From Pseudomonadota bacterium (GTDB lineage: Bacteria > Pseudomonadota > Gammaproteobacteria > Burkholderiales > Burkholderiaceae_C): a DNA stretch of 44,220 nt. The stretch covers positions 1-44,220 of the forward strand of contig JAJZEC010000031.1 in assembly GCA_021805825.1 (NCBI GenBank). The letters are read 5' to 3'. Position numbers and translations under genes: made by a program. Each line of letters starts with the position of its first letter. Position 1 is the stretch's first letter. Below the pieces are notes generated by a model. That model did not search any database, was not told the origin of the DNA, and was given only the letters and a program-made list of their open reading frames with translations. Positions 3,208 to 26,427 of the stretch are shown piece after piece.

Positions 3208-4620
3208 TCAGAGCCTGCCGTAGGAATGCAGCCCCGACAGGAACATGTTGACGCCCAGGAAGGCGAAGGTGGTCACCAGCAGGCCGGCCAACGCCCACCA
3301 GGCGGCAACCTGGCCGCGCAGGCCCTTGATCAGCCGCATGTGCAGCCAGGCGGCGTAGTTCAGCCAGACGATCAGCGCCCAGGTCTCCTTCGGATCCCAG
3401 CTCCAGTAGCCACCCCAGGCCTGCGCCGCCCACAGCGCGCCGAGAATGGTGGCGATGGTGAAGAACGTGAAGCCGATGGCGATGGCCTTGTACATCACGT
3501 CGTCCATCACCTCCGGCGCCGGCAGGTGCGCGGCGATGCGCCGCCGGCCGTAGAGGATGCCGGCCACGGCCAGCGCCGACACTCCGGCGAACACGCCCCA
3601 GTACTCGGAAATCCCGCCCTGGCGGAACACCAGGGGTTCGAAGAACATCACGAAGCCCAGCACCCACAGCGGAGCGAGCTTCCACCACGAGCTCTCGTTG
3701 CCGTTGATCTTCACCAGATAGGCAAAGCCGACCATCGCGGAAATCGAGAAGCAGCCGTAGCCGACGAAGTTGGCCGGCACGTGCAGCTTCATCCACCAGC
3801 TCTGCAGCGCCGGCACCAGCGGCTCGATGGTCGAGCCGTCCTGCACCAGGCTGAACCAGAGCAGGAAGCCGACCGCGGCACTGACCACCAGCATCGCGAA
3901 GGCGCCCATCGAGCGCGTGCGGTACTTCTGTTCGAAGAACAGATACAGGGTGGTCGTCAGCCAGGAGAACAGCACGAACACCTCGTACAGGTTCGACAGC
4001 GGAATGTGCCCGACGTCGGGGCCGACGAGGTAGCTCTCGAACCAGCGCATCATCGTGCCGGTCAGCGCCATGGTCACGCCGACCCAGGCCAGGCGCGAAG
4101 CGAAGTACTGCGGGAAGTTCGACTGCCACCCACGGGCGTCGCGCAGCGGCGTGCCGTCGGCCGTCGCGCCATGCCCGGTGAACATGCCGACCCAGTAGCT
4201 CGCCGTCGACAGGAAGAACAGCAGCGCCATCCACAGGATCGCGGTCTGGCTGGAGAGGAAGAACTTGAGCAGGAAGTTCTGGTCGCCGCGCGCCAGCACC
4301 GCGACGCCGCCCGGGCCGTAGTACTGGGAAATGCCGAGCAGCGACAGCGCCGCGACGGACAGCGACAGGTTCTTCAGGGACGTCCAACCCCAGCCGAACA
4401 GCAGCAAGGCGGTTGTCGCGCCCAGGAAGATCAGCTGCACCCAGTAACCCATCGCAGCACCGAAGCGGTGCAGCACGTACGCGTCGCCGCCGAGTATCAG
4501 CGCGAGGTACACCCAGTCGTAGGGCGTGCGCCGGCGCAGGTAGGCCACGGGCCCGGACTGGCGGGACGCCAGCTGGGCGCGGTCGCGCTCGATCAGCGGA
4601 TGCTTGGTGGTCCATTCCAT
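3208..4620 (-). CDS. ccsA: System II cytochrome c haem ligase subunit CcsA (ResC)
   Basis: A 470-residue polytopic membrane protein that with ResB exports haem and attaches it to apocytochromes c outside the membrane. The defining tryptophan-rich WWD motif WGGYWSWDPKETWALIVW begins at about residue 402. Conserved external histidines are seen in KLHVPANFVGYG and in the C-terminal GLHSYG. Multiple hydrophobic segments span most of the length. The ATG at 4620 is preceded by GAAGAGG, and only 14 bases separate it from the resB stop, so the two form an operon. Naming differs between systems: pipelines based on TIGR03144 call this family ccsB. Confidence 0.94.
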   Translation of the reverse strand: MEWTTKHPLIERDRAQLASRQSGPVAYLRRRTPYDWVYLALILGGDAYVLHRFGAAMGYWVQLIFLGATTALLLFGWGWTSLKNLSLSVAALSLLGISQYYGPGGVAVLARGDQNFLLKFFLSSQTAILWMALLFFLSTASYWVGMFTGHGATADGTPLRDARGWQSNFPQYFASRLAWVGVTMALTGTMMRWFESYLVGPDVGHIPLSNLYEVFVLFSWLTTTLYLFFEQKYRTRSMGAFAMLVVSAAVGFLLWFSLVQDGSTIEPLVPALQSWWMKLHVPANFVGYGCFSISAMVGFAYLVKINGNESSWWKLAPLWVLGFVMFFEPLVFRQGGISEYWGVFAGVSALAVAGILYGRRRIAAHLPAPEVMDDVMYKAIAIGFTFFTIATILGALWAAQAWGGYWSWDPKETWALIVWLNYAAWLHMRLIKGLRGQVAAWWALAGLLVTTFAFLGVNMFLSGLHSYGRL

Positions 4621-4634
4621 CGCTTGGATCCTCT

Positions 4635-6812
4635 TCAGGTTGGGTCGGCACCGGCTTCGGCAGGCCGGTCCGGGGGCTGCATCAGGGCGTCGCGCAGGGC
4701 GCCGAACTCACGCTCGAAATCCATCGTGCGCCGATTGGTACTCATCGCCATCAGGGTCTTGCTGCCACCTTCGGCGTCATCCTTGACCAGGAACCAGACG
4801 CGGCGTTCGCGGATGTAGAGCATCGAGAACACCCCGAGGATGAGCAGGCCGGCGCCGAAATACACGATCACCTTGCCGGGCGCGCGGGCGACCTGGAAGA
4901 CGCTGGCCTCGACCTGGTGGAATCCGGTCAGCTGCATGTACAGCGGTGCCGGGTAGAAGGCCGCATCCGACAGCGCCAGCACCGCGGCGTTGAAAAAGCG
5001 CTGGTTCGCCTCGTCGGCCTTGGCCGGCGGCAGTCCGGCCTGCCGGCGCTCGATCTGCCAGAGCTGCCACAGGGTACCGTTGAGCACGTCGATGAACACC
5101 TTCGACGCCTTCGTCAGCTGGTTCTTCGGCACCTCGCGCTGCAGGAATTCAGCCAGTGCCGGCAAGCCGCCTGGCGAACTGACCACCGGCTTGCCGGTGT
5201 GCGCATCGCGCGGCAGGTCGCCGGCGAACACGTCCAGCGTGCGCGCCGCGGTTTCACGCAGTTGCTGCGCCAGCTTGGGCGAGACCCCCGCGGGCAGCGC
5301 CTGCTGCACATAGGTCGCCACCGCCTGCGCGCGCAGTTGCGGGTTCTGCAAGGCCGCGCGCAGCCGCATCCAGCCGTCGATGCGGCCCTGGGAGTCGGCC
5401 GGGATGCGCAGGTAGCGGTAGGTGCCACCCAGTTCGCTGCGCTCGCCGGCGACGAACATGGGCATGCCGTCGAGGTCGATGGGCAGCATGTAGTTGAAGA
5501 ACTCGTCGGCCTGCCCCGCCGCATTGCGCAGTTTGTAGATCACCGCCGGGCCGACGTTGGTCGGGCGGTCGGCGCGGTTGGCGTTGACCGGCGCGCCCAG
5601 GTGGCGATCGAACACCGAGAACAGGCTCCGCGAGGCCTTGGTCGCGGATACCGAAGCGTCGGCGCGCTGCAGGTTTTCCACGTTGATCGCGCGAAACCCC
5701 GTGAGCTCCAGCGTCAGGCTGTGCTGCGCATCGCTGAGCTGGCGCGAGGAACCGACGTCGCCCTTCAGATCGAAGGCCTGGTCGCCCGCGCCACGCATCG
5801 GCCAGGCCTTGAGCTGCAGATGCGATCCGCCGTCGTCGAAGCCGGACTGGAAGATGGTGACGCCGTCGTAGGTCAACGGATGGTTGACCTTGATCACCGC
5901 CGGGAAGGTCTTGTGGGTGCGCGCGTCGGTGATCAGCACGTCGCTCTGGAACAGCCTGGGCATTCCGGTCGAGTAGTAGTCGATGCGGAATTTCTTCAGG
6001 GCGATGGTGAACGGCAGAGGCTGCAGCACCGAGCCGTCGCCGATGGTCAGGATCGCGGTGTTCGCGCTTCCGCCCTCGGGAATCTGCAGGTTGCCGCGGA
6101 AGCTCGGGTTGTGCACCGACAGCACGTGGCGCGGCGGAACCTGGGAGATCTGCATGTTGTGCGTCAGCAGGCTCTTGCCCGTCAGCAGCATCTGCAGGCG
6201 GATCATCATGTCGCCGTCGAGCAGTCCGCCGACGCAGATGAGCACGAAGGCGCTGTGCGCCAGGATGTAGCCGAGGCGGTTCAAGCTCCCGGTCTTGGCC
6301 GCCACCAGGGTCGCCCCCTCCTGCTCGCGCAGCTGCATGCGCCAGCCGCGGCTGCGCAGGCCCTGCTGGATCTGGCGCACCATCGATGCGCGCGGCAGCG
6401 CCACCGTGGACTCCGCGCGGTCGCGGAAGGAGCGCAGCCCCTGCTCGCGCACATGGGTCTTGTAGCTGCGGAAGTCGGCAAGCACCTTCGGCGTGTTGCG
6501 CACCAGGCACAGGGTGGTCGACACCACCAGAATGCCCATGATCAGCAGGAACCACCAGGAGCTGTAGACGTTGAACAGATCCAGGCTGTGGAACACTGAA
6601 GCCCAGAACGGGCCGAACTGGTCGACGTAGTTGCTCAGCGGCTCGCCCTGCTGCAGCACGGTGCCGATGATGCTGGCGATGGCCACCACCACCAGCAGGG
6701 AGATGGCGAAGCGCATCGACGACAGCAGCTCCACGCCGCTGCGCCAGGCTTTCGAACCGTGCCGCAACTGCAGGCCGGAGGTACTGAGGGTGGTGATCGG
6801 GGGGGAGGACAT
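4635..6812 (-). CDS. resB: System II cytochrome c biogenesis protein ResB (CcsB/Ccs1)
   Basis: A 725-residue partner of CcsA in haem delivery to apocytochrome c. N-terminal membrane segments (SMRFAISLLVVVAIASIIGT; a second in WWFLLIMGILVVSTTLCLV) are followed by a third (LAHSAFVLICVGGLLDGD), a large periplasmic domain, and a last C-terminal segment (VYFGAGLLILGVFSMLYI) before a cytoplasmic tail. This order matches ResB of beta-proteobacteria. A TTG lies directly before the ATG at 6812. I chose the ATG, although neither has a clear Shine-Dalgarno sequence, so the start is less certain than the gene. It is cotranscribed with ccsA. Confidence 0.93.
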   Translation of the reverse strand: MSSPPITTLSTSGLQLRHGSKAWRSGVELLSSMRFAISLLVVVAIASIIGTVLQQGEPLSNYVDQFGPFWASVFHSLDLFNVYSSWWFLLIMGILVVSTTLCLVRNTPKVLADFRSYKTHVREQGLRSFRDRAESTVALPRASMVRQIQQGLRSRGWRMQLREQEGATLVAAKTGSLNRLGYILAHSAFVLICVGGLLDGDMMIRLQMLLTGKSLLTHNMQISQVPPRHVLSVHNPSFRGNLQIPEGGSANTAILTIGDGSVLQPLPFTIALKKFRIDYYSTGMPRLFQSDVLITDARTHKTFPAVIKVNHPLTYDGVTIFQSGFDDGGSHLQLKAWPMRGAGDQAFDLKGDVGSSRQLSDAQHSLTLELTGFRAINVENLQRADASVSATKASRSLFSVFDRHLGAPVNANRADRPTNVGPAVIYKLRNAAGQADEFFNYMLPIDLDGMPMFVAGERSELGGTYRYLRIPADSQGRIDGWMRLRAALQNPQLRAQAVATYVQQALPAGVSPKLAQQLRETAARTLDVFAGDLPRDAHTGKPVVSSPGGLPALAEFLQREVPKNQLTKASKVFIDVLNGTLWQLWQIERRQAGLPPAKADEANQRFFNAAVLALSDAAFYPAPLYMQLTGFHQVEASVFQVARAPGKVIVYFGAGLLILGVFSMLYIRERRVWFLVKDDAEGGSKTLMAMSTNRRTMDFEREFGALRDALMQPPDRPAEAGADPT

Positions 6813-7167
6813 CAATGCCTATGGGATACCGGGGCGCAGGCCCCAAACGCCTGTGGCGCGCGTCGGTTGCGGCGCGCCGCGCCGCGCGCAGACCGCGCAC
6901 AGGCCGGCGGCTCGTTGCGGCCACCTCGCTGCGCCCGCGCCCGGCAACCGCCTGGCGGGCCGGAATCGCCCCGACCTCCGGCCGGGTCAGCCACCGCAGC
7001 GAACAGGGACGCGCGCACTATATCAAAGGCGCACTGACATCGTGGTAACGAATGCCGCACATGCAACATGGATTTTTCGACAGCGACGAGAGCGGGAGTT
7101 TTGCCGTGGGCAACGCACCCGGGGGCTAAGATCCACCGATGATAGCCATATATAAGCGAGAACGCAT
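6813..7167. other. Divergent intergenic region resB / engB
   Basis: About 355 bases with no convincing gene on either strand; open frames here carry no CXXCH and no family signature. It must hold the resB promoter (minus) and the engB promoter (plus). The plus side ends with an AT-rich TATATA at 7149-7154, which could be a -10 element but would leave only a very short leader. I found no well-spaced -35. Confidence 0.5.
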
Positions 7168-12269: not shown

Positions 12270-15200
12270 TCAGCCACCGGCTCCCGGGGCGCTGGCGCGC
12301 AGGGTCTGCTGCGCCAGCCACTGCAGCAGCTGCTGGGCGGCATCGTCCATCTGCTGCAGGTAGGCGCTGTGGTGCACCTGCGCATGCCAGCGCAGCGCCT
12401 GCGCGTGCTCGCAACCCTGCGCGCGCAGGAAACGGGTCAGCGGACAGGCTCCCAAGGGCCCCGGGTGGCGGGGATACGGTGGGTGGTGGATGGCCTCCCA
12501 GTGGTAGGCCAAGGCGCCCGGCCAGCTCTGCAGCTCGACGCCGCCGCTGGGCGCGATCGGCCGGCTGCGCGCCCAGTCGAGAAAGGCTTCGGGCGGCATG
12601 GGTCGGGCCAGCGCGTAGCCCTGCCCCAGGCGCGCACCGAGCAACCTTGCGGCTTCGCAGGCCCCGGGCTGTTCCAGTCCCTCGACCACGGTACCGTGCG
12701 CGAATTGCTGGCCGATGCGCAACAGCGCGGCCAGCAGCCGGATCGTCTTCACCGGGTCGCGCGGCAGTTCGCCGATCAGGCTCTGGTCGATCTTGACCGT
12801 GTCGATCGGCAGCGCCGCCAGGCGCCGCAGGCTGCCGTAGCCGGCGCCGAGGTCATCCAGCGCCAGGCGCACCCCCAGCGCGTCGATGGCGCCCAGCGCC
12901 CGGTCGCTGCGCAACTGATCCAGATCCTCGCTTTCCAGCACTTCCAGCGTCAGGTGGCACGGCGCCACCTGGGCGCGATGCAGGGCCTGCTCGATCCAGG
13001 ACGCGCAGTCGGGATGATGCAGCGTGGACGGCGCCAGGTTGATGCTGATGCCGATGTCCTGCCCGGCCTGCCGCCATTGCCGCAAGGACTCGAGCGCCAG
13101 ATCCAGGCCCTGCAGGAACAGCGCCTGGAGTTCCGGCTCGCCAAAGGCGGGCAGGAAGCTTGCCGGCGCCAGCACCCGATCCTCGGCGTCGACCAGGCGG
13201 GCCAGCGCCTCGAGCTTCACGGTGGTCCCGCTGTGCAGGTCGACGATCGGCTGCACCCACATCTGCAGACGACGCGCATACAGCAGTTCGCGCAGCGCGC
13301 GCACGCGCGCGGGTTCGACGAAGGCATGTCCGCGCGCGCTGGCGGAGAACTGGGCATCGAGCCGGCCGCGCAGCAGTTCCAGCCAGGAACGCGCCCATTT
13401 CGACGAGAACTGGTGGGGATAGGCTCCGAACAGCACCAGCACGCTGTCGATGTTCCCTGAGCTGATGATCGGCACGGTGGCCGCGCTGCGCCAGCCGCAG
13501 CGGGTCGCCACACCGCGCCAGCGCTCCAGCCGCGACTCCAGCGCGTAGGAATCGACGACCTCGACCTGGTGGCTGAACCAGGTCGCGGAAATCGGGCCAC
13601 GCTGCGCGTGCGGCCCGCCTTCGAGGTTCACGTAGAGGCTCTCGTCCTCCAGCAGTTCCGCGAGTCCTTCGTAATCGGCGCCGGCGCCGGCCTCGTGGCG
13701 CAGCACGCCCTGTTCGTCAGGCCGGAAGAGGATGGCATGGCGCAGTCCCGGCAGCTCGCCGAGCCGTTGCAGCGTGGCCGACAGCACATCGGCCCAGCAC
13801 GCGCCGGCCGTGTCCATCGTCTCGAGCAGAGCGAAGTACATCGCGCTGGTCTGGTCGATGGCGCTCAACTGGTTCTGCACGTCCAGCCGCAGTCGGCCGG
13901 AGGCCACGCGCAGCACGCGGTAGCGCTGGCGCGAGGAGATCAGTGCATCTTCCAGCGCGGCACGCAGCAGATCCTCGTAGCGGGCGAAGCTCTCTTCCAT
14001 CGCCGCGGCCGACACGCCGACCAGCAGGTGGATCCGTCCGGCGTGCCGCGCCTTGCGCTCCAGCGCCTCGCGGGTGGTGTCGGCGCGCAACAGAAAGCGC
14101 AGGTGCTCGACCTGCGCCCGCCGCAGCGCGGCCGACTCGTCCGCGCTCAGGCAGCGCAGGATGCCGGCGTTCTCCGCGGTGGCCGACAGGGCCTCGTAGA
14201 ACGCGCCGGTGAACTGCTCGGCCACCTGCTGCAGCATGCCAGCGTCCAGGGAGGCCAGCAAGGCCGCGGATTCGCCGCCGAACAGGTCGACCGCGGACTC
14301 GCGCAGGCCTTCCTCGACGCGCGCTTCGCCGCCGCCGCTGCCGATGCGCCACCAGCGCACGCGGTCGTGCTTGTGCAGCTTGCTGGCGTACATCGCCGCA
14401 TCCGCCAGGCGCAGCAGGGTATCGGGCTGGTCGGCGTGCATCGGGTACAGCGCCAGGCCCATGGTGACCCCGACCTGGGCGCTGCGCCCTTGGCCCAGGT
14501 CGAAGGGCGCCTGCACCGCCTCGTGCAGGCGCCCCAGCGCGGTTTCGAGCTGCTCGACATGGTGCCGTGCGTCCAGATCCTCGAACACCACCACGAGTTC
14601 GTCGCCGCCCAGGCGCGCGACGAAATCACCGCGCCGCAGCCGCAGCCGCAGGGCCTGGCCGAGCTTGCGCAGCAGCACGTCGCCCATGGCATGGCCAAGG
14701 CGGTCGTTGACCGGCTTGAAATCGTCGAGGTCGAGCACGCCCACCGCGACCACGCCTTGCCGGCGCCCGGCACGCGCCAGTGCGCCCGGCAGGTATTCAT
14801 CCAGCGCCAGGCGATTGGGCAGCCCGGTGAGGCTGTCGCTGCGGGCGCGGCGGCTTTCGGTGTCCTGCAGTTGCTGCAAGGCGGATTTGCGATCCAGCTC
14901 GTCCAGCCCATGCCCCAGCAGGCTGGCGATGCGCGTGCACAGGGCCACCGTGGCCTCGTCGAACACCGCGCGGCGCGCGGTGGCGAAGACCAGAATCGCC
15001 CAGCTCGCGCCGCCGCGCTGGATCGGCGCAGCCAGCAGCCCGGCCCAGTGTCGGCCGCCCGCCATCGCCTGCGCGGGTCGCGGATCGCAGTCGACCAGGG
15101 CGTCGTTGCAGACCACGACCTGTCCGTCGCTCCAGGCGCGGGCGATGATCGAGGCCGCAGAGCGTTCGCCCGGCCCCACGGGATCTCTCCGCGACAGCTG

Positions 15201-15941
15201 CCCGCCGCTACCGGCAACGGCCAGCACCTCGAAGTCCTGCGACGGGCCTGGCCGCCCGATCCACGCCGTGTGGAAAGGGGTGTCGCGGGTCAGGGTGTCG
15301 CACAGGCTGCCCAGCATGTCCTGCTCGCTGCGACTCTCGATGAGCACGTCGGCCGAGCGCAGCAGAGCGCGGTAGAGATCCTGCAGTTCCAGCAGCTTCT
15401 GGCGCTGCTCGATGAGGTCGGTGGTTCGCCGCCCCAGCACCTCGGTCAGCTGCCCCAGGATCTCGACCAGGTACTGCTGCGCGTCCGACGCCTGCGCAGC
15501 CGGGCCCGCGGCGGTCGGCTCGCCTTGCAGACCCCTGATCTCGCGCGCCATGCGGGCGTCCAGCCCCATGATGTGGTGCAGCAGCCATTGCGCCAGGAAG
15601 GCCAGCAGGTCGACGGTGAACTCCGCCGGGTGGCTGAGGGCGAGGCCTTCGACCTGCTCGAGATAGGCGAGGAAGCTGCGGTGGGCCTGCAGATGCTGCG
15701 TGCGGTGCTCCGCATCGAGACGCCACCGGCGCATCAACCGGGCTTCCTCGCGGAAGTGCTCGCGCGCATAGTCGAACAGGGACTGCAGCAGCGACGCAGC
15801 CTGTTCTCGGGTCGCGCCAGCGCCCTGCGCACCCACGGCCCGGTTGAAGATACCCAGCAGCCGCTCGTGCTGCTCGTCGACCAGCGGAATTCCGGTGGCC
15901 AGCGCGGCACTCCAGCGCAGCTGCCCGGGCGCGAGGCTCAC
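12270..15941 (-). CDS. Multi-sensor c-di-GMP protein: hemerythrin, GAF, GGDEF, globin, GAF, EAL, CZB-like
   Basis: A 1223-residue cytoplasmic protein with no membrane segment. Residues 10-135 are a bacteriohemerythrin with all seven di-iron ligands (H25, H62, E66, H83, H87, H123, D128). A GAF-like region (190-350) leads to a GGDEF domain (363-532) with GGDEL at 445-449 and an RxxD inhibitory site at 436-439. Residues 540-695 look like a globin-coupled-sensor globin, with proximal-histidine candidate H638 in GRIHLLVG. A second GAF-like region (715-870) precedes an EAL domain (885-1120) that keeps E911, N968, E1000, D1029, D1030, K1050, E1087 and Q1107. The tail (1140-1195) resembles a CZB zinc domain (H1147, C1166, H1186, H1190). 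Both synthesis and hydrolysis of c-di-GMP look possible. The GTG at 15941 follows a GGAG; longer starts lack one. Confidence 0.9.
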   Translation of the reverse strand: MSLAPGQLRWSAALATGIPLVDEQHERLLGIFNRAVGAQGAGATREQAASLLQSLFDYAREHFREEARLMRRWRLDAEHRTQHLQAHRSFLAYLEQVEGLALSHPAEFTVDLLAFLAQWLLHHIMGLDARMAREIRGLQGEPTAAGPAAQASDAQQYLVEILGQLTEVLGRRTTDLIEQRQKLLELQDLYRALLRSADVLIESRSEQDMLGSLCDTLTRDTPFHTAWIGRPGPSQDFEVLAVAGSGGQLSRRDPVGPGERSAASIIARAWSDGQVVVCNDALVDCDPRPAQAMAGGRHWAGLLAAPIQRGGASWAILVFATARRAVFDEATVALCTRIASLLGHGLDELDRKSALQQLQDTESRRARSDSLTGLPNRLALDEYLPGALARAGRRQGVVAVGVLDLDDFKPVNDRLGHAMGDVLLRKLGQALRLRLRRGDFVARLGGDELVVVFEDLDARHHVEQLETALGRLHEAVQAPFDLGQGRSAQVGVTMGLALYPMHADQPDTLLRLADAAMYASKLHKHDRVRWWRIGSGGGEARVEEGLRESAVDLFGGESAALLASLDAGMLQQVAEQFTGAFYEALSATAENAGILRCLSADESAALRRAQVEHLRFLLRADTTREALERKARHAGRIHLLVGVSAAAMEESFARYEDLLRAALEDALISSRQRYRVLRVASGRLRLDVQNQLSAIDQTSAMYFALLETMDTAGACWADVLSATLQRLGELPGLRHAILFRPDEQGVLRHEAGAGADYEGLAELLEDESLYVNLEGGPHAQRGPISATWFSHQVEVVDSYALESRLERWRGVATRCGWRSAATVPIISSGNIDSVLVLFGAYPHQFSSKWARSWLELLRGRLDAQFSASARGHAFVEPARVRALRELLYARRLQMWVQPIVDLHSGTTVKLEALARLVDAEDRVLAPASFLPAFGEPELQALFLQGLDLALESLRQWRQAGQDIGISINLAPSTLHHPDCASWIEQALHRAQVAPCHLTLEVLESEDLDQLRSDRALGAIDALGVRLALDDLGAGYGSLRRLAALPIDTVKIDQSLIGELPRDPVKTIRLLAALLRIGQQFAHGTVVEGLEQPGACEAARLLGARLGQGYALARPMPPEAFLDWARSRPIAPSGGVELQSWPGALAYHWEAIHHPPYPRHPGPLGACPLTRFLRAQGCEHAQALRWHAQVHHSAYLQQMDDAAQQLLQWLAQQTLRASAPGAGG

Positions 15942-16201
15942 GGCCGACTCCCCGGCCGGGACAAGGAAGGCCACGAGCGCGACGGGCGGCCGCCGCGGGC
16001 ATGGCGAGCGCAGCGCAGACCATCGATCACGAGGAGACGTTCCCGTCCGCCCTGCGGCAGCTTGCCGGTTCCCGGGAGCTTCACGGAGCACCGCGGGAAG
16101 GATTGTGTGATTCGGCGCACTCCGATGTTCTGTTGCCTATTGTTTCATTGTAACGCGCAAATGTTGTCGATCCGACCCGGAGATTACGGTCATCGTAGCT
16201 C

Positions 16202-17915: not shown

Positions 17916-20264
17916 TCAGGCGCCGCTGGAGCCCGGTTGCCGGGCCACCTCCCACCAGCGCAGGCGCTGGTGCTTGTGCGCCTTGACCGCGTACATCGCG
18001 GCATCGGCGCGGCGCAGCAGCCGCTCGGCGTCGTCGCCATGGGTGGGATACAGCGCCAGCCCGAGCGACAGGCCGATGCGGCCGATGCGCCCCTGCCCGA
18101 GGTCGAACGGCGCGTCCACCGCCTGGTGCAGGCGGCGCAGCGCGGTGTCGAGCTGCAGCACCGCCTGCGCGGCGTCGAGTTCCTCGAAGACGACGACGAA
18201 TTCATCGCCGCCCAGGCGGGCCAGGAAGTCCCCGCTGCGCAACAACCGGCGCAGGCGCTGCGCGAGCTGCTGCAGCAGCACGTCCCCGGCGGCATGGCCG
18301 TGGCTGTCGTTGACCGGCTTGAAGTCGTCGAGGTCGAGCAGTCCCACCGCCAGCAGCTTGCCGCTGCGCGAGGCCCGCGCCATGGCCTGCGGAAGATGCT
18401 GCTCCAGCGCGAAGCGGTTGGGCAGTTCGGTGAGGGCGTCGTGGCGGGCGCGGTGCGCGTCCTCCGACTGCAGCTGGCGCAGCCGCAGCTTGAGGTCGAG
18501 TTCGTCGAGGCCGTGGCCGAGCAGCTCGCAGACCTGCTCGCAGGTTCGCAGGGTCTGCTGCTGGAAGGCGTCGCGCACCGGGGCAATGAACACCAGCACC
18601 GCCCAGGGCTTGCCGCCGCGGTGCACCGGAGCCACCAGGGCCGACTCCCACCCAAGCTCGCGCATGGCCTGCAGCCATGGGGTTCCGCGGTGGGCCAGCA
18701 GATTGTCGTTGCGCAACACGGCGCGCGCCTCGCGCCAGGACTGGGCGACCAGCGAACGCGGGTCGTCCACGTGCACGCGCAAGCCCTCGAGCAGGTCGCT
18801 GCCCGGCCCGGCCCGAGCCAAGGTCTGCATCCAGCCTTGCGCATCGGGTCGGCGCAGCGCGGCGACGTGGAACGGGGTATCGCCGACCAGGCGCTCGCAG
18901 GTCTGCTGCAGCATCTGCGCCTCGTCGCGCGCGCGCAGCACCACGTCACCCTCCGCCAGCAGCGCGCGATACAGGCGTTGCAGCTGCTCGGTCTCCAGGC
19001 GCTGCGCCTCGCGGGCGGTGACGTCGAGCACCGTCCATACCGAGCGCTGCGCATCCAGGCGCACGCCGATGAGGTCGCACGACAGACTGCTGCCGTCGCG
19101 CCTGCGCACAGCCACCGCGGGCAGGCGCAACACGCCTTCGCTGGCCAGGCGCGGCAGGTCGCGGGCCACGGATTCCCAGGCGCCGTCGCCGACGAACAGC
19201 TCGCGCACATCCATTCCCGCCAGCTGGTCGCGGGAAGCAAAACCGAGCAGCTGCGCCATGCGGGCGTTGGCGAACACGCAGCGCCGCTCGCCGACCACCG
19301 CGACCCCGGCGTCGGTGTGATCGACGAGGGCCTTGTTCAGTTGCCGCAGCTGCAGGTGATCGAGGCCGTACTCGATGTCGGCGGCGAGCTCCAGCAGCAG
19401 CTCCTGCAGCAGGGAGTCGAAAAAGCCCTGCTCGTCGCTGAACAACGTGAGCACCCCCAGCATCGCCTGGCCGCGCCGGATCGGCAGCACGGCGCTGGCT
19501 TGCAATCCATGCTCCTCGGCGCGCCGCCGCCAGGGCAGCAGCATCGGGCTGGCGGCGAAACTGACGTTGAAGAAGGCATGCGCCTCGTTCCAGCAGCGCC
19601 CGATCGTGCCCTGGCCCAGCGGCACCCGCGGATCCGCGCTGATCTCGATGCCTTCGAGGTAGGCCCGTGCCGGCCCGGCCGCCGCGACGACCCGCATGCG
19701 CAATGCATCGTCGGGACTGGCCACCCAGGCCAGACACACCCCGGCATGGCGAACGGCCAGTTCGCATACCGATTGCAGCAGATCGGTATCGGAGTGGGCG
19801 CGCGCCATCGACGCTCCGGCCTCGGCGAGGAAGGTCCGGTAGCTGGCCAGCCGGGCGCTGCGGCGCGCCAGGCGATCCTGTTCGGTGATGTCGCTGCCGA
19901 CGGCCACCAGGTAGCGGGGCATGCCGTCCGGGCCATCCAGCAGCGCGTTGTTCCACCGCAACAAACGCGATTCTCCATGGGCATTGATCCAGTGATGGAT
20001 CGCCGTCGCCGGCGCACCCCGGGTGCGCAGGGCATCGAACCAGCCGCGCAGCTTCGCCCGATCCTCCGGCGGCACGAAACGCTCCCAGGCGAAGGGTTCC
20101 GACGCGGCCTCGGCACTCCTGCAGCCGGTGAATTCCTCGGCCGCGCGGTTCATGCGTACCAGCCGCCCGTCGACCTCGATGACCAGCGCCACCGCTCCCA
20201 GCGCGTCGAACAGCGCGTCGGCAACATCGCGTTGCGCAGGGTCGGGGGCCGGCAGTGGAGACAT
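17916..20264 (-). CDS. PAS-GAF-PAS-GAF-GGDEF diguanylate cyclase
   Basis: A 782-residue cytoplasmic sensor cyclase making c-di-GMP from two GTP. Order by eye: PAS about 13-135 (DGRLVRMNRAAEEFTG, ending GSDITEQDRLARR), GAF 145-305, PAS 312-425, GAF 430-590, GGDEF 605-772. The GGDEF signature is intact at 685-689 and the RxxD product-inhibition site is at 676-679, so it should be active and feedback-regulated. There is no EAL or HD-GYP domain. Residues from 430 on closely parallel residues 190-532 of the 1223-residue protein nearby, indicating a paralogous cassette. A TTG six codons upstream is an alternative start; I used the ATG at 20264. It is divergent from the HDOD gene, with 98 bases between. 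Confidence 0.92.
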   Translation of the reverse strand: MSPLPAPDPAQRDVADALFDALGAVALVIEVDGRLVRMNRAAEEFTGCRSAEAASEPFAWERFVPPEDRAKLRGWFDALRTRGAPATAIHHWINAHGESRLLRWNNALLDGPDGMPRYLVAVGSDITEQDRLARRSARLASYRTFLAEAGASMARAHSDTDLLQSVCELAVRHAGVCLAWVASPDDALRMRVVAAAGPARAYLEGIEISADPRVPLGQGTIGRCWNEAHAFFNVSFAASPMLLPWRRRAEEHGLQASAVLPIRRGQAMLGVLTLFSDEQGFFDSLLQELLLELAADIEYGLDHLQLRQLNKALVDHTDAGVAVVGERRCVFANARMAQLLGFASRDQLAGMDVRELFVGDGAWESVARDLPRLASEGVLRLPAVAVRRRDGSSLSCDLIGVRLDAQRSVWTVLDVTAREAQRLETEQLQRLYRALLAEGDVVLRARDEAQMLQQTCERLVGDTPFHVAALRRPDAQGWMQTLARAGPGSDLLEGLRVHVDDPRSLVAQSWREARAVLRNDNLLAHRGTPWLQAMRELGWESALVAPVHRGGKPWAVLVFIAPVRDAFQQQTLRTCEQVCELLGHGLDELDLKLRLRQLQSEDAHRARHDALTELPNRFALEQHLPQAMARASRSGKLLAVGLLDLDDFKPVNDSHGHAAGDVLLQQLAQRLRRLLRSGDFLARLGGDEFVVVFEELDAAQAVLQLDTALRRLHQAVDAPFDLGQGRIGRIGLSLGLALYPTHGDDAERLLRRADAAMYAVKAHKHQRLRWWEVARQPGSSGA

Positions 20265-20362
20265 GGGGAGATTTTCATACAAGCCGCCGTGTCGGCGCAG
20301 GGATCTCGCGGTCTGCGCTATGGTGTGGCCCGGCCGCGCCGCCTGCCCCTGGGTTCCCGCCG

Positions 20363-21787
20363 ATGCATCCGACCTACCGCCCCGATCCCGCTGCGCAACT
20401 CCACGAACTGGCTCGAGATATCGCCGAGCGGGATCTTCCGGCCTTCGGGCTCAGCCTGCGCCAGCTGCTCGAAGCCACCGCCAGCGACAGCAGTTCGGGA
20501 CAGCAGGTCGCGGAAATCGTCCTGCGCGATCCCGGCCTGACCTCGCGCGTGCTGCGCGCCGCCAACGCCGCCTACCTGGGCCTGGTCGGGGATGCGCGGG
20601 TGGTCACCGTGACCCGCGCGGTGGTGGTGCTCGGCCTCAACCCCATTCGCTCGCTGTGTGTCTCGGCGCTGGCCGTGGAAAGCCTGGGCAGCGGCGAGCA
20701 CCTGGCCAGCCGGGTGCATCAGACGCTGGCACGCGCACTGCATGCGGCGGTGCAGGCGCGCGACATCGGCCATCAACTGCAGGCGAGCAAGGCGACCTCG
20801 GAGCAGTGGTTCGTCGAGGCCATGCTGGGCCACCTCGGCGAGCTGGCCTTCTGGTGTTTCGGCGGCGAGCAGGCGCAGCGCCTGGACGAGGCGCTGCGCG
20901 CCGGGCAGGACGGCGAACAGGCCCAGCAGCGCATCCTCGGCGGATCCCTCGCCTCGTTCGGGCGCGCACTGCTGCACGCGTGGAAGCTCGACTCGGTGCT
21001 GCGCGACAGTCCGGAAGTGCTGCTGGCCATGCGGTTGAGCGAACAACTCGGTAGCGCCCCCCACCCGGCGGCCGCTTGGACACAGCCGCAGGTGCGGCAG
21101 ACGGTGCGACAGATCGCCGACCTGCTCGGCCGCGACGCCACGCAGACCCTCGATCGGCTGCGCGACAACGCGCTCCAGGCCCTGCAACTGGCACGCGCCC
21201 TGGGCGCGCCCGAGGCGGCGGCGGCCATCCCGGCCGATGCGGAACCCAGCCCGCCGGCGGCACCCGAGGCACCCCCTGCCGACCCCGCCTGGGCGCCCGA
21301 CCCGCAGCAGCAATTGCGGATGCTCGGCGAAATGGGGCAGGCGGCGCGCACGCGCAAGGAGCTGCCGCTGCTGCTGGAGACCTGCCTGGAAGGCCTGCAC
21401 CGCAGCGTGGGCCTGGATCGCTGCGCGCTGTGCCTGCTCAACCCGCCGCGCAACCGCCTGGTCGCACGCATGGCCATCGGCGTCGAAACCGCGGCCCTGC
21501 GCCAGGACCTGCAATGGGACTGGCATGCGCAGTGGCAGACGCGCCTGCCTCCGGATACGGCACGCTGGTGCAAGGCCGCAAGCTCCGAGGATCGCTGGTT
21601 GCTCGACGCCAGCGGCGCAGCACAAGGCTTTGTCGCGGCCTTCACCGTCGACGAGCAATTCCTGGGCTGCTTCTACGCCGACTGCCTGCCTTCCGGCCGC
21701 CAGCTCGCGGCCGGACAGTTCGAAGCCTTCCAGCGCTTCGTCTGGATGACCCACCTGATCGTGCGCGCGCTGCCCCGGGGCAGCTGA
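20363..21787 (+). CDS. HDOD domain protein with C-terminal GAF-like domain
   Basis: A 474-residue cytoplasmic signalling protein. Residues about 10-215 form an HDOD domain: LPAFGLSLRQLLEATAS, then VLRDPGLTSRVLRAANAAYLG and the VTRAVVVLGLNPIRSLCVS helix pair, which is the most conserved HDOD stretch. HDOD domains lack the catalytic HD metal site and act as regulators in bacterial signalling. A Pro/Ala linker at about 295-320 joins a GAF-like domain (about 330-470: LLLETCLEGLHRSVGLDRCALCLLNP). The ATG at 20363 is preferred over an in-frame GTG at 20255 that gives an unlikely extension. Its position opposite the cyclase suggests a shared regulatory region and role. Confidence 0.88.
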   Translation: MHPTYRPDPAAQLHELARDIAERDLPAFGLSLRQLLEATASDSSSGQQVAEIVLRDPGLTSRVLRAANAAYLGLVGDARVVTVTRAVVVLGLNPIRSLCVSALAVESLGSGEHLASRVHQTLARALHAAVQARDIGHQLQASKATSEQWFVEAMLGHLGELAFWCFGGEQAQRLDEALRAGQDGEQAQQRILGGSLASFGRALLHAWKLDSVLRDSPEVLLAMRLSEQLGSAPHPAAAWTQPQVRQTVRQIADLLGRDATQTLDRLRDNALQALQLARALGAPEAAAAIPADAEPSPPAAPEAPPADPAWAPDPQQQLRMLGEMGQAARTRKELPLLLETCLEGLHRSVGLDRCALCLLNPPRNRLVARMAIGVETAALRQDLQWDWHAQWQTRLPPDTARWCKAASSEDRWLLDASGAAQGFVAAFTVDEQFLGCFYADCLPSGRQLAAGQFEAFQRFVWMTHLIVRALPRGS

Positions 21788-24658: not shown

Positions 24659-24818
24659 CCATGTCTAGGACATGGTCTTTCCTGTTTATCGGGGTTTGTA
24701 CTAGGATTGTCCTCGTAGTGATGAGGTGCTCCGAGGGCATCCCGTCATTTCCTCTTGTCTCCTCCACCCTCCTCCATAGGTGGATTCGAACCCAGGCCGA
24801 TGTGCCTGGGTTTTTTTT
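24659..24818 (+). ncRNA. Candidate small RNA or ilvA leader ending in a strong terminator
   Basis: Between the osmC start and ilvA lies a less GC-rich segment with no recognisable gene but several RNA-like structures. These are a 7-bp hairpin CCATGTC-TAG-GACATGG (24659-24675), a long pyrimidine-rich stretch with repeated CCTCC (24750-24776), a hairpin TCCACC / GGTGGA (24763-24784) and the terminator at 24791-24818. The CCTCC motifs could pair with Shine-Dalgarno sequences. A weak promoter match, TTTCCT (24678) then TAGGAT (24702) with an 18-base gap, would give a transcript of about 105 nt. I do not recognise a known RNA family. The alternative is a 5' leader of ilvA with conditional termination. 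Confidence 0.45.
24791..24818 (+). terminator. Strong intrinsic terminator upstream of ilvA
   Basis: CCCAGGC, loop CGATGT, GCCTGGG, then eight T: a textbook rho-independent terminator on the plus strand. No plus-strand protein gene precedes it after coq7, whose stop is about 750 bases upstream with an oppositely oriented gene between. It therefore ends either a small RNA or an ilvA leader. Confidence 0.92.
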
Positions 24819-24853
24819 GCCCGCCCGCGGCGGGGCGCGCGACGCTGCCCGGA

Positions 24854-24859
24854 TAAAAT
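24854..24859 (+). promoter_or_regulatory. Possible -10 element of ilvA
   Basis: TAAAAT stands out in GC-rich sequence, 26 bases before the chosen GTG start. It would put the start of transcription near 24866, after the terminator. No -35 is visible at the right distance, so the assignment is tentative. Confidence 0.4.
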
Positions 24860-24885
24860 GGGGGTCTTTGCCCACCGCGCTGCAC

Positions 24886-26427
24886 GTGACCCGCAAGCCC
24901 ATCGACTACCTGCAAGCCATCCTGACCGCCAGGGTGTACGACGTCGCGCACGAGACCGCGCTGGACACCGCGCACAATCTCGGCCGCCGATTGCACAACA
25001 CCGTGCTGCTCAAGCGCGAGGATCAGCAACCAGTGTTCAGCTTCAAGCTGCGCGGCGCCTACAACAAGATGTCGCGCCTAGGCGAGGAGGAGCGCAAGCG
25101 CGGGGTGATCTGCGCCTCGGCCGGCAACCATGCGCAGGGGGTGGCGCTGGCGGCGCGCAAGCTGGGCTGCCGGGCGGTGATCGTCATGCCCCTGACGACG
25201 CCAAGGGTCAAGGTGGACGCCGTGCGCGCCTTCGGCGGCAACGCGGTGGACATCGTGCTGCACGGCGACAGCTACAGCGATGCCGCGGCGCATGCCGCCG
25301 AACTGCAGCAACAGCGCGGGCTGAGTTTCGTCCACCCCTTCGACGACCCCGACGTGATCGCCGGCCAGGGAACCATCGGCATGGAGATCCTGCGCCAGCA
25401 TCCGGGGCCGATCCACGCTGTGTTCTGCGCCATCGGCGGCGGCGGCCTGATCGGCGGCGTCGGGGCCTACATCAAGGCGGTGCGCCCGGAGGTACGGGTG
25501 ATCGGGGTGCAGACGGTGGACTCCGACGCCATGCTGCGCAGCGTGCACGCCGGGCGGCGCATCGAACTCGCCGAAGTCGGGCTGTTCGCCGACGGCACCG
25601 CGGTCAAGCGCGTGGGGGAGGAAACCTTCCGCCTGGCGCGCGAGGTCGTCGACGACTTCGTGGTGGTCGACACCGACGCCGTCTGCGCGGCGATCAAGGA
25701 TGTGTTCGCCGACACCCGCTGCGTGCTCGAGCCGTCGGGAGCGATGGCGGTGGCCGCGCTCAAGCAGTATGTCGAGACCCGCAAGCTCAAGGCACAGACC
25801 CTGGTGGCCATCACTTGCGGGGCCAACATGAACTTCGACCGCCTGCGCTTCGTCGCCGAACGGGCCGAGGTGGGCGAAGCGCGCGAGGCGCTGTTCGCGG
25901 TGAGCATCCCGGAGCGACCCGGCAGTTTCCGCAAGCTGTGCGCGCTGCTCGGCCCGCGCGCCGTCACCGAATTCAACTACCGCCTGGGCGACCCGCAGCA
26001 GGCGCAGGTCTTCGTCGGCATCGCGGTCAGCGGCCGTGACGATGCCCGCCGCATCGCGTCCCACCTGGCGCGCGCCGGCTACGAAAGCCTGGATCTCAGC
26101 GACGACGAACTGGCCAAGCAGCATGTGCGTCACCTCGTGGGCGGGCGCGCGCCGCGCGCCGCAGACGCCACGCCCCTGCACGAGCGCCTGCTGCGCTTCG
26201 ATTTTCCCGAACGCCCGGGTGCGCTGATGCGCTTTCTCGAGCACCTGAAGCCGGACTGGAACATCAGCCTGTTCCACTACCGCAACCAGGGCGGCGACAG
26301 CGGGCGGGTTCTGGTCGGCATCCAGGTACCTCCTGCCGACCGACGGCGCTTCGGCGAGTTCCTCGACTCCCTGGGCTACTCCCATGTCGAGGAAACCCAC
26401 AACCCGGTCGTGAAGCTCTTCCTGTAG
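24886..26427 (+). CDS. ilvA: Threonine ammonia-lyase, biosynthetic, with two ACT-like domains
   Basis: A 513-residue PLP enzyme that deaminates threonine to 2-oxobutanoate, the first committed step to isoleucine. The PLP lysine is K54 in SFKLRGAY, preceded by LLKREDQQP. The PLP phosphate loop is IGGGGLIGG. SAGNHAQGVA and the C-terminal pair of ACT-like regulatory modules (IPERPGSFRKL and FPERPGALMRF, each followed by the EFNYR / SLFHYR strand) show the long, isoleucine-inhibited biosynthetic form. Length equals that of E. coli IlvA. I chose the GTG at 24886 (MTRKPIDYLQAILTARVYDV); no good Shine-Dalgarno precedes it. The frame is open to 24661 but that part overlaps a terminator. Confidence 0.95.
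   Translation: MTRKPIDYLQAILTARVYDVAHETALDTAHNLGRRLHNTVLLKREDQQPVFSFKLRGAYNKMSRLGEEERKRGVICASAGNHAQGVALAARKLGCRAVIVMPLTTPRVKVDAVRAFGGNAVDIVLHGDSYSDAAAHAAELQQQRGLSFVHPFDDPDVIAGQGTIGMEILRQHPGPIHAVFCAIGGGGLIGGVGAYIKAVRPEVRVIGVQTVDSDAMLRSVHAGRRIELAEVGLFADGTAVKRVGEETFRLAREVVDDFVVVDTDAVCAAIKDVFADTRCVLEPSGAMAVAALKQYVETRKLKAQTLVAITCGANMNFDRLRFVAERAEVGEAREALFAVSIPERPGSFRKLCALLGPRAVTEFNYRLGDPQQAQVFVGIAVSGRDDARRIASHLARAGYESLDLSDDELAKQHVRHLVGGRAPRAADATPLHERLLRFDFPERPGALMRFLEHLKPDWNISLFHYRNQGGDSGRVLVGIQVPPADRRRFGEFLDSLGYSHVEETHNPVVKLFL

Follow-up and report, generated by a model that had tools for sequence, protein, structure and literature searches.

Hemerythrin and globin folds joined to GGDEF and EAL domains in a single predicted protein of a Burkholderiales bacterium

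Background

The closest described counterparts of the protein reported here are enzymes of cyclic di-guanosine monophosphate (c-di-GMP) turnover controlled by a hemerythrin or a haem globin; what we say of them follows the accessible portions of the papers cited. The bacteriohemerythrin diguanylate cyclase of Vibrio cholerae, Bhr-DGC, is ten times as active in its diferrous as in its diferric form (PMC9388753). In DcpG the EAL domain is active with Fe(II)-O2 haem and the GGDEF domain with NO (PMC10882959), and the protoglobin phosphodiesterase Chp1 is listed as O2 (+) (PMC8846402). As of 2022, according to PMC9388753, no hemerythrin phosphodiesterase with an EAL domain had yet been discovered. 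Protoglobin and CZB have been recorded among the partner domains in Acidithiobacillus caldus (PMC4331095). Hemerythrin and globin reside in separate proteins in the accessible parts of PMC8846402, PMC12442639, PMC13401364 and PMC3770913, and our searches of the open-licence literature listed no paper that describes the two in one protein in its title or the opening of its abstract. Here we analyse a gene, located on a 44,220-nucleotide stretch of DNA (contig JAJZEC010000031.1; hereafter the window), whose predicted product joins these two unrelated oxygen-binding folds to the two opposing c-di-GMP enzyme domains.

According to an initial annotation of this gene, no described protein of its full domain order was known. 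Our searches of the open-licence literature agree with this, but the order is not unique to the window: dozens of proteins in the databases share it, many of them from metagenome-derived genomes, as does one in the genome of an isolate, Acidithrix ferrooxidans (Actinomycetota).

Results and discussion

Gene and domain order

The gene occupies positions 12270..15941 of the minus strand, which confirms the open reading frame (ORF) and coordinates first assigned to it, and encodes 1,223 amino acids from a GTG start. An alternative in-frame GTG at 16091 would yield a form of 1,273 amino acids; the shorter form is preferred because its start coincides with that of P0004 and P0005, two close relatives. 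The highest mean hydropathy over 19 residues of the 1,223-residue protein is 1.47, so that no membrane segment is apparent. Pfam reads the chain as hemerythrin-GAF-GGDEF-globin-GAF-EAL followed by a tail, with matches to Hemerythrin (residues 17-131), GAF_2 (205-347), GGDEF (368-527), Protoglobin (557-690), GAF (719-856) and EAL (882-1115). The initial annotation had named hemerythrin, GGDEF, globin and EAL domains, which Pfam or the predicted structure bears out, together with a tail of CZB spacing, which was not confirmed, and it had overlooked both GAF domains. Profiles, residue conservation and the predicted globin structure support the view that a single chain combines two oxygen-binding folds with the synthesising and the degrading domain of c-di-GMP turnover.

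Conservation was counted over 120 rows, consisting of the window protein and 119 of the best 120 of 1185 matches at 1e-20; P0003, the window's own copy, was left out. Counts over 54 rows refer to the hemerythrin-bearing subset, selected by profile and including the window protein.

The hemerythrin domain (residues 8-137; 15531..15920, minus strand) scores 37.5 bits against the Pfam model (cut-off 25.3) and 86 bits against TIGR02481 (cut-off 51.75), while the narrower bacteriohemerythrin model NF033749 gives 77.9, below its cut-off of 84. All seven di-iron ligands claimed for it from the letters alone are present, and each is kept in 51 to 54 of the 54 rows: H62, E66, H87, H123 and D128 in every one, H83 in 53 and H25 in 51.

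The globin, of globin-coupled-sensor (GCS) type, spans residues 549-700 (13842..14297, minus strand). Its Protoglobin score is 24.2 bits in the scan of the whole protein and 29.8 bits in the six-frame scan (Pfam cut-off 25). The predicted structure of this region is a globin fold closest to the sensor globins, and it is this model that settles the assignment of residues 549-700 as a sensor-globin fold; its last helix runs for 45 residues inside the modelled piece. The candidate proximal histidine of the initial annotation, H638 (14028..14030, minus strand), is sustained at the F8 position, being His in 120 of 120 rows, and Y582 (14196..14198, minus strand), kept in 103 of 120, takes the distal B10 tyrosine position; both align in register with the sensor globins 8h17 and 2w31. 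The globin alignment comprised 57 of 62 stretches (L009, L013, L019, L029 and L052 were left out), and it looks slightly more uniform than the family, since L009 and L013, which seem divergent in the B-helix region, are missing from it.

The GGDEF domain (residues 368-527; 14361..14840, minus strand), the diguanylate cyclase module, matches Pfam at 128 bits. Its inhibitory RxxD site, claimed at the outset, is indeed there (R436-D439; 14625..14636, minus strand; R in 113 and D in 110 of 120 rows). The active-site motif departs from the GG(D/E)EF signature, reading GGDEL (residues 445-449; 14595..14609, minus strand) with Leu instead of Phe as its last letter; at position 449 the other rows mostly carry Phe (113 of 120, with Leu in 7, the window protein among them). 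D447 and E448 are present in all 120 rows, and the remaining metal- and GTP-binding positions in 112 to 119. Given this motif, and given that replacement of the corresponding Phe by Ala abolished the activity of EcGReg/DosC in vivo (PMC5549716), c-di-GMP synthesis by the window protein is likely from its sequence, though not safe to assume.

The EAL domain, a c-di-GMP phosphodiesterase module (residues 882-1115; 12597..13298, minus strand; Pfam 165 bits), retains every catalytic or metal-binding position that was checked, in keeping with the earlier description. E911, N968, E1003, D1029, D1030, K1050 and D1052 are identical in 120 of 120 rows, and E1000 (119), E1087 (119), Q1107 (118) and E1090 (110) are nearly so. 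Of the two GAF domains, the first (residues 205-347; 14901..15329, minus strand) matches GAF_2 at 75.6 bits and the second (residues 719-856; 13374..13787, minus strand) matches GAF at 50 bits.

Relatives and spread

Among the named records with matches are many bins labelled "Proteobacteria bacterium", a bin each for Rhodanobacter, Oleiagrimonas and "Muproteobacteria", and the strain PY-F3 of Acidithrix ferrooxidans; 28 of 33 loci align from residue 10 or earlier to residue 1190 or later. From their sampling names we take the metagenome bins to derive from mine drainage; the record name of P0098, a protein without hemerythrin, comes from a mine drainage metagenome. The proteins of Acidithrix, the Rhodanobacter bin and the Muproteobacteria bin each carry Hemerythrin, GGDEF, Protoglobin (29.6, 29.9 and 25.0 bits, respectively) and EAL matches. 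The Acidithrix homologue (L056:3510-7244), of hemerythrin-GGDEF-globin-EAL order, is 33% identical to the window protein over residues 6-1190, and the C..H..H pattern is readable in its tail. Chance or artefact as the origin of the domain order was rejected, since the order returns as intact long frames across many genomes.

At the E limits used, the genome that holds the window has 33 GGDEF, 27 EAL, 9 Protoglobin and 7 Hemerythrin matches, the last three counts each including one match below cut-off. Three of its proteins have the order hemerythrin-GAF-GGDEF-globin-GAF-EAL, namely the window protein (C83), C33 and C45. Among 28 genomes of the same genus, this one included, at least nine full-length matches (query start at or before residue 10, end at or after residue 1190) occur in at least six, a lower bound obtained by scoring at most 11 candidates per genome; 32 other genomes scanned alongside gave no match at 1e-60. 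Across the class, 11 of 369 genomes, again counting this one, match at 1e-100, and a full-length match with hemerythrin was seen only in the window's own genome, with two candidates scored per genome.

Two separable blocks

We read the chain as two units, [input-GAF-GGDEF] and [globin-GAF-EAL-tail], because each block occurs alone elsewhere, the joint between them varies most among the stretches measured, and hemerythrin presence changes at least six times on the core tree. The first block alone is represented next door by P0002 (17916..20282, minus strand), identified by Pfam and BLASTP as a PAS-GAF-PAS-GAF-GGDEF protein whose GGDEF motif is intact. Over 362 aligned positions, the final GAF-GGDEF pair of P0002 shares 51% identity with residues 179-540 of the window protein, and nothing follows the GGDEF. 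The second block alone is represented in the same genome by C10 (674 amino acids) and C77 (689 amino acids), which are globin-GAF-EAL proteins without GGDEF; C10 is 36% identical to the window protein over residues 548-1213, tail included. In other families of the class, L135 (G177:C5) and L136 (G266:C104) have the order hemerythrin-GAF-GGDEF-EAL with no globin match, and their EAL motifs deviate, L135 having DK for DD and L136 reading EAF. At the joint itself, residues 536-548, median identity over 51 rows is 11%, the lowest of the ten stretches measured.

The profile finds hemerythrin in 54 of the 120 rows; where it is absent, the Pfam matches listed include PAS, MASE1 (PF05231) or CHASE (PF03924) in its place. 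On the FastTree core tree the presence of hemerythrin switches 8 times, at least 6 of these switches being forced by starred branches, while the His at position 638 stays the same in all 120 rows. Several long branches of the tree were flagged, and it was used for the repeated gain or loss of hemerythrin, not for its direction.

A possible oxygen switch

We tentatively prefer to read the window protein as a pair of enzymes on a single chain, both gated by oxygen, with the hemerythrin switching synthesis and the globin switching breakdown of c-di-GMP, and we put the chances of this somewhat short of even. At low oxygen the hemerythrin would take its diferrous form and keep the cyclase active, on the model of Vibrio cholerae Bhr-DGC; the globin, free of ligand, would leave the phosphodiesterase off. 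At high oxygen the hemerythrin would be oxidised and synthesis would stop, while the oxy-globin would turn the EAL domain on, as in DcpG. The globin is predicted to bind haem, and its long last helix would carry the signal into the second GAF and the EAL domain. With both sensors pushing the same way, the proposed switch would respond to oxygen or redox state more steeply than either sensor alone; two oxygen affinities or redox states in one protein, as initially suggested, are possible. Beyond the domains and residues themselves, activity and its direction are drawn by analogy from Vibrio cholerae Bhr-DGC, DcpG and Chp1. A broader version, in which acidophiles of different phyla share such a push-pull switch with exchangeable front sensors and the tail supplies a metal signal, strikes us as plausible but rather more doubtful.

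A number of observations weigh against this picture. Proteins with and without hemerythrin are mixed together in the core tree, and the pairing of hemerythrin with globin is therefore not a fixed unit. In the Acidithrix homologue the first GAF lies below the Pfam cut-off and the second was not found by Pfam. C45 (G000:C45:4492-8106; L133, L108), one of the three proteins of this order in the genome, scores only 18 bits against Protoglobin, below cut-off, and lacks the distal Phe-Tyr (B10 Tyr) and the equivalent of H613, with the proximal His kept; the tail of C77 has no Cys. The window protein's globin is internal (residues 549-700) and not N-terminal, where classical sensors have it; it nonetheless heads its own globin-GAF-EAL block. 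By analogy with EcGReg, the GGDEL motif may leave the cyclase with little or no activity, Leu being a milder change than Ala. Finally, the direction of the response cannot be read from sequence because O2 switches on DgcO/DosC and BpeGReg, which are globin cyclases, according to the accessible text of PMC8846402.

Alternative explanations and the C-terminal tail

The motif change also underlies the alternative that the protein is effectively a phosphodiesterase only, in which a weak GGDEL domain would serve as a GTP- or c-di-GMP-binding regulator and both hemerythrin and globin would feed the EAL domain. In its favour, besides the effect of the Phe-to-Ala change on EcGReg, the exceptional Leu at the end of the motif is found in 5 of the 54 hemerythrin rows and 2 of the 66 others, and R436 is less constant in the hemerythrin rows (47/54) than in the rest (66/66). 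Conservation at D447, E448 and the remaining metal- and GTP-binding sites is, however, unlike that of a decayed cyclase, and the inhibitory site is retained, and we hold this alternative to be rather unlikely. A globin that senses a ligand other than O2, for example NO, beside a hemerythrin that senses redox state or peroxide, so that two different signals are weighed, would have a precedent in DcpG, whose outputs for O2 and NO are opposite (PMC10882959); against it, Y582 corresponds to the distal Tyr by which EcGReg stabilises O2 (PMC5549716), and we consider such an arrangement improbable. More improbable still is that the globin lacks haem and serves for structure or dimerisation, as the RsbR N-terminal domain does, leaving the hemerythrin as the sole oxygen sensor; the proximal histidine position is, as stated above, invariant.

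A further alternative concerns the C-terminal tail, a helical Cys/His segment (residues 1140-1212; 12306..12524, minus strand) that may be a true, shortened CZB zinc sensor gating the EAL domain, which would make the three-sensor protein that the initial annotation proposed. AlphaFold2 predicts four helices for the segment (predicted local distance difference test score 84.1), and W1148 (116/120), C1166 (110/120), H1186 (108/120) and H1190 (104/120) are well conserved. The Cys and both His occur together in 102 of 120 rows, all three are absent in 5, and 5 more keep the Cys with both His lost. The tail shares with CZB domains a Cys, an aromatic residue five positions later and then HxxxH. When it was compared by hhalign with seven domain profiles, CZB gave the lowest E value (0.021), with the Cys and both His in register. 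Supporting this reading as well, the paralog C16 (G000:C16:41608-44724; L003, L134), of GAF-GGDEF-globin-EAL order, carries a C-terminal CZB match of 27 or 21.5 bits depending on the scan, and loci of its type are found in 19 of the 28 genomes of the genus, the window's own among them, where a CZB match of 24.4-29.7 bits lies 109-118 bases past the core and is flagged above the cut-off of 29.4 in 3 of the 19.

Against it, Pfam finds no CZB in the window protein's tail and only one, at E 0.025, among 55 tail members. The hhalign probability for CZB is 2%, and an EAL control reaches a higher raw score than CZB (15.9 against 14.9), while column-shuffled tails equal the CZB score in 10 of 300 trials. 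This hhalign and shuffling work used 39 hemerythrin rows chosen by regular expression, where the profile choice gives 54; the tail alignment used all 54 stretches. The His/Cys spacing, which had been described as that of a CZB domain, also differs. The pattern was found in 96 of the 120 rows, and in 92 of these the Cys and the first His are 20 residues apart. In the 30 distinct CZB domains used for comparison (31 loci, each of which passed a motif filter that allows 22-32) this distance is 27-28 without exception, and in place of H-(27-30)-C-(27-28)-H-x3-H the candidate first His of the tail stands 14 or 19 residues before the Cys. A search of the tail against PDB sequence profiles returned only weak matches, to component E of enterobactin synthase (E 0.12 or worse), and a fold search with the tail model placed no CZB chain among the matches listed (21 Foldseek rows, 50 VIA rows), a result that excludes nothing.

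We thus did not accept the tail as a plain CZB domain, in view of the missing Pfam match, the spacing and the marginal hhalign result, and the same findings leave the proposed zinc input unsupported; that it is a genuine shortened CZB zinc sensor seems to us on balance unlikely. Because of the Pfam, spacing, hhalign and shuffling results we name it a conserved Cys/His tail, a segment that resembles CZB in sequence and in which a metal site is possible. In a group of seven tails, L011 and L014-L019, Tyr takes the place of the first His and Arg that of the second (Leu in L017), a paired loss of the possible metal site with the Cys retained in six of the seven.

Other features of the window

Divergent from the cyclase gene P0002 lies an ORF for an HDOD-domain protein (20255-21787, plus strand), the two ORFs as listed overlapping by 28 bases. 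A match to Rfam RF02278, "Betaproteobacteria toxic sRNA" (24756-24819, plus strand; 68.3 bits), falls over codons 32-53 of the ORF at 24661-26427, whose threonine-dehydratase match begins only at residue 98; the true start of this ORF may for these reasons be downstream of the small RNA. The Rfam match also hints that the organism belongs to the Betaproteobacteria. A cytochrome c assembly pair, consisting of ResB-like and Cytochrom_C_asm proteins, is encoded at 3208-6815 on the minus strand.

Comparison with known systems

If the preferred reading of two oxygen-gated enzymes is true, this would be, as far as our searches of the open-licence literature show, the first polypeptide described to join a hemerythrin and a haem globin, each wired to one of two opposing c-di-GMP activities. 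How a cell makes its oxygen threshold sharper would become open to experiment, a matter relevant to iron oxidisers that must settle where Fe(II) meets O2, and since single-block versions exist in the same genome, the effect of fusing the blocks could be measured directly.

The modules themselves are known, and it is their combination that is new. Among previously reported fusions, a hemerythrin-GGDEF-EAL chimaera noted once by Bailly et al. 2008 (PMC2556348) shares three modules with the window protein, and the accessible text makes no mention of a globin in it. Ferrovum Bhr-HD-GYP, from an acid-mine iron oxidiser (PMC8846402), likewise links hemerythrin to a c-di-GMP phosphodiesterase, but it has HD-GYP instead of EAL and, as listed there, no globin. 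The Acidithiobacillus proteins AFE_1712 (Protoglobin-GGDEF-EAL-CZB) and GCS-GAF-GGDEF-EAL have the same core modules in acidophile hosts (PMC6416229); in this comparison by domain list, the word "hemerythrin" occurs 0 times in the main text of that paper as accessible to us. DosC/EcGReg and BpeGReg share the globin fold, the proximal His and the distal Phe-Tyr pair, but their globin drives a GGDEF domain, whereas that of the window protein is internal and precedes GAF-EAL. Vibrio cholerae Bhr-DGC has the same N-terminal hemerythrin and GGDEF output; compared with it by description, the window protein has a GAF domain between the two and a globin-GAF-EAL block after them. DcpG of Paenibacillus dendritiformis, in which GGDEF and EAL are both active, also combines these two domains with a GCS globin on a single polypeptide, and in comparison with its description the window protein places the globin between GGDEF and EAL and adds a second oxygen-binding fold and two GAF domains.

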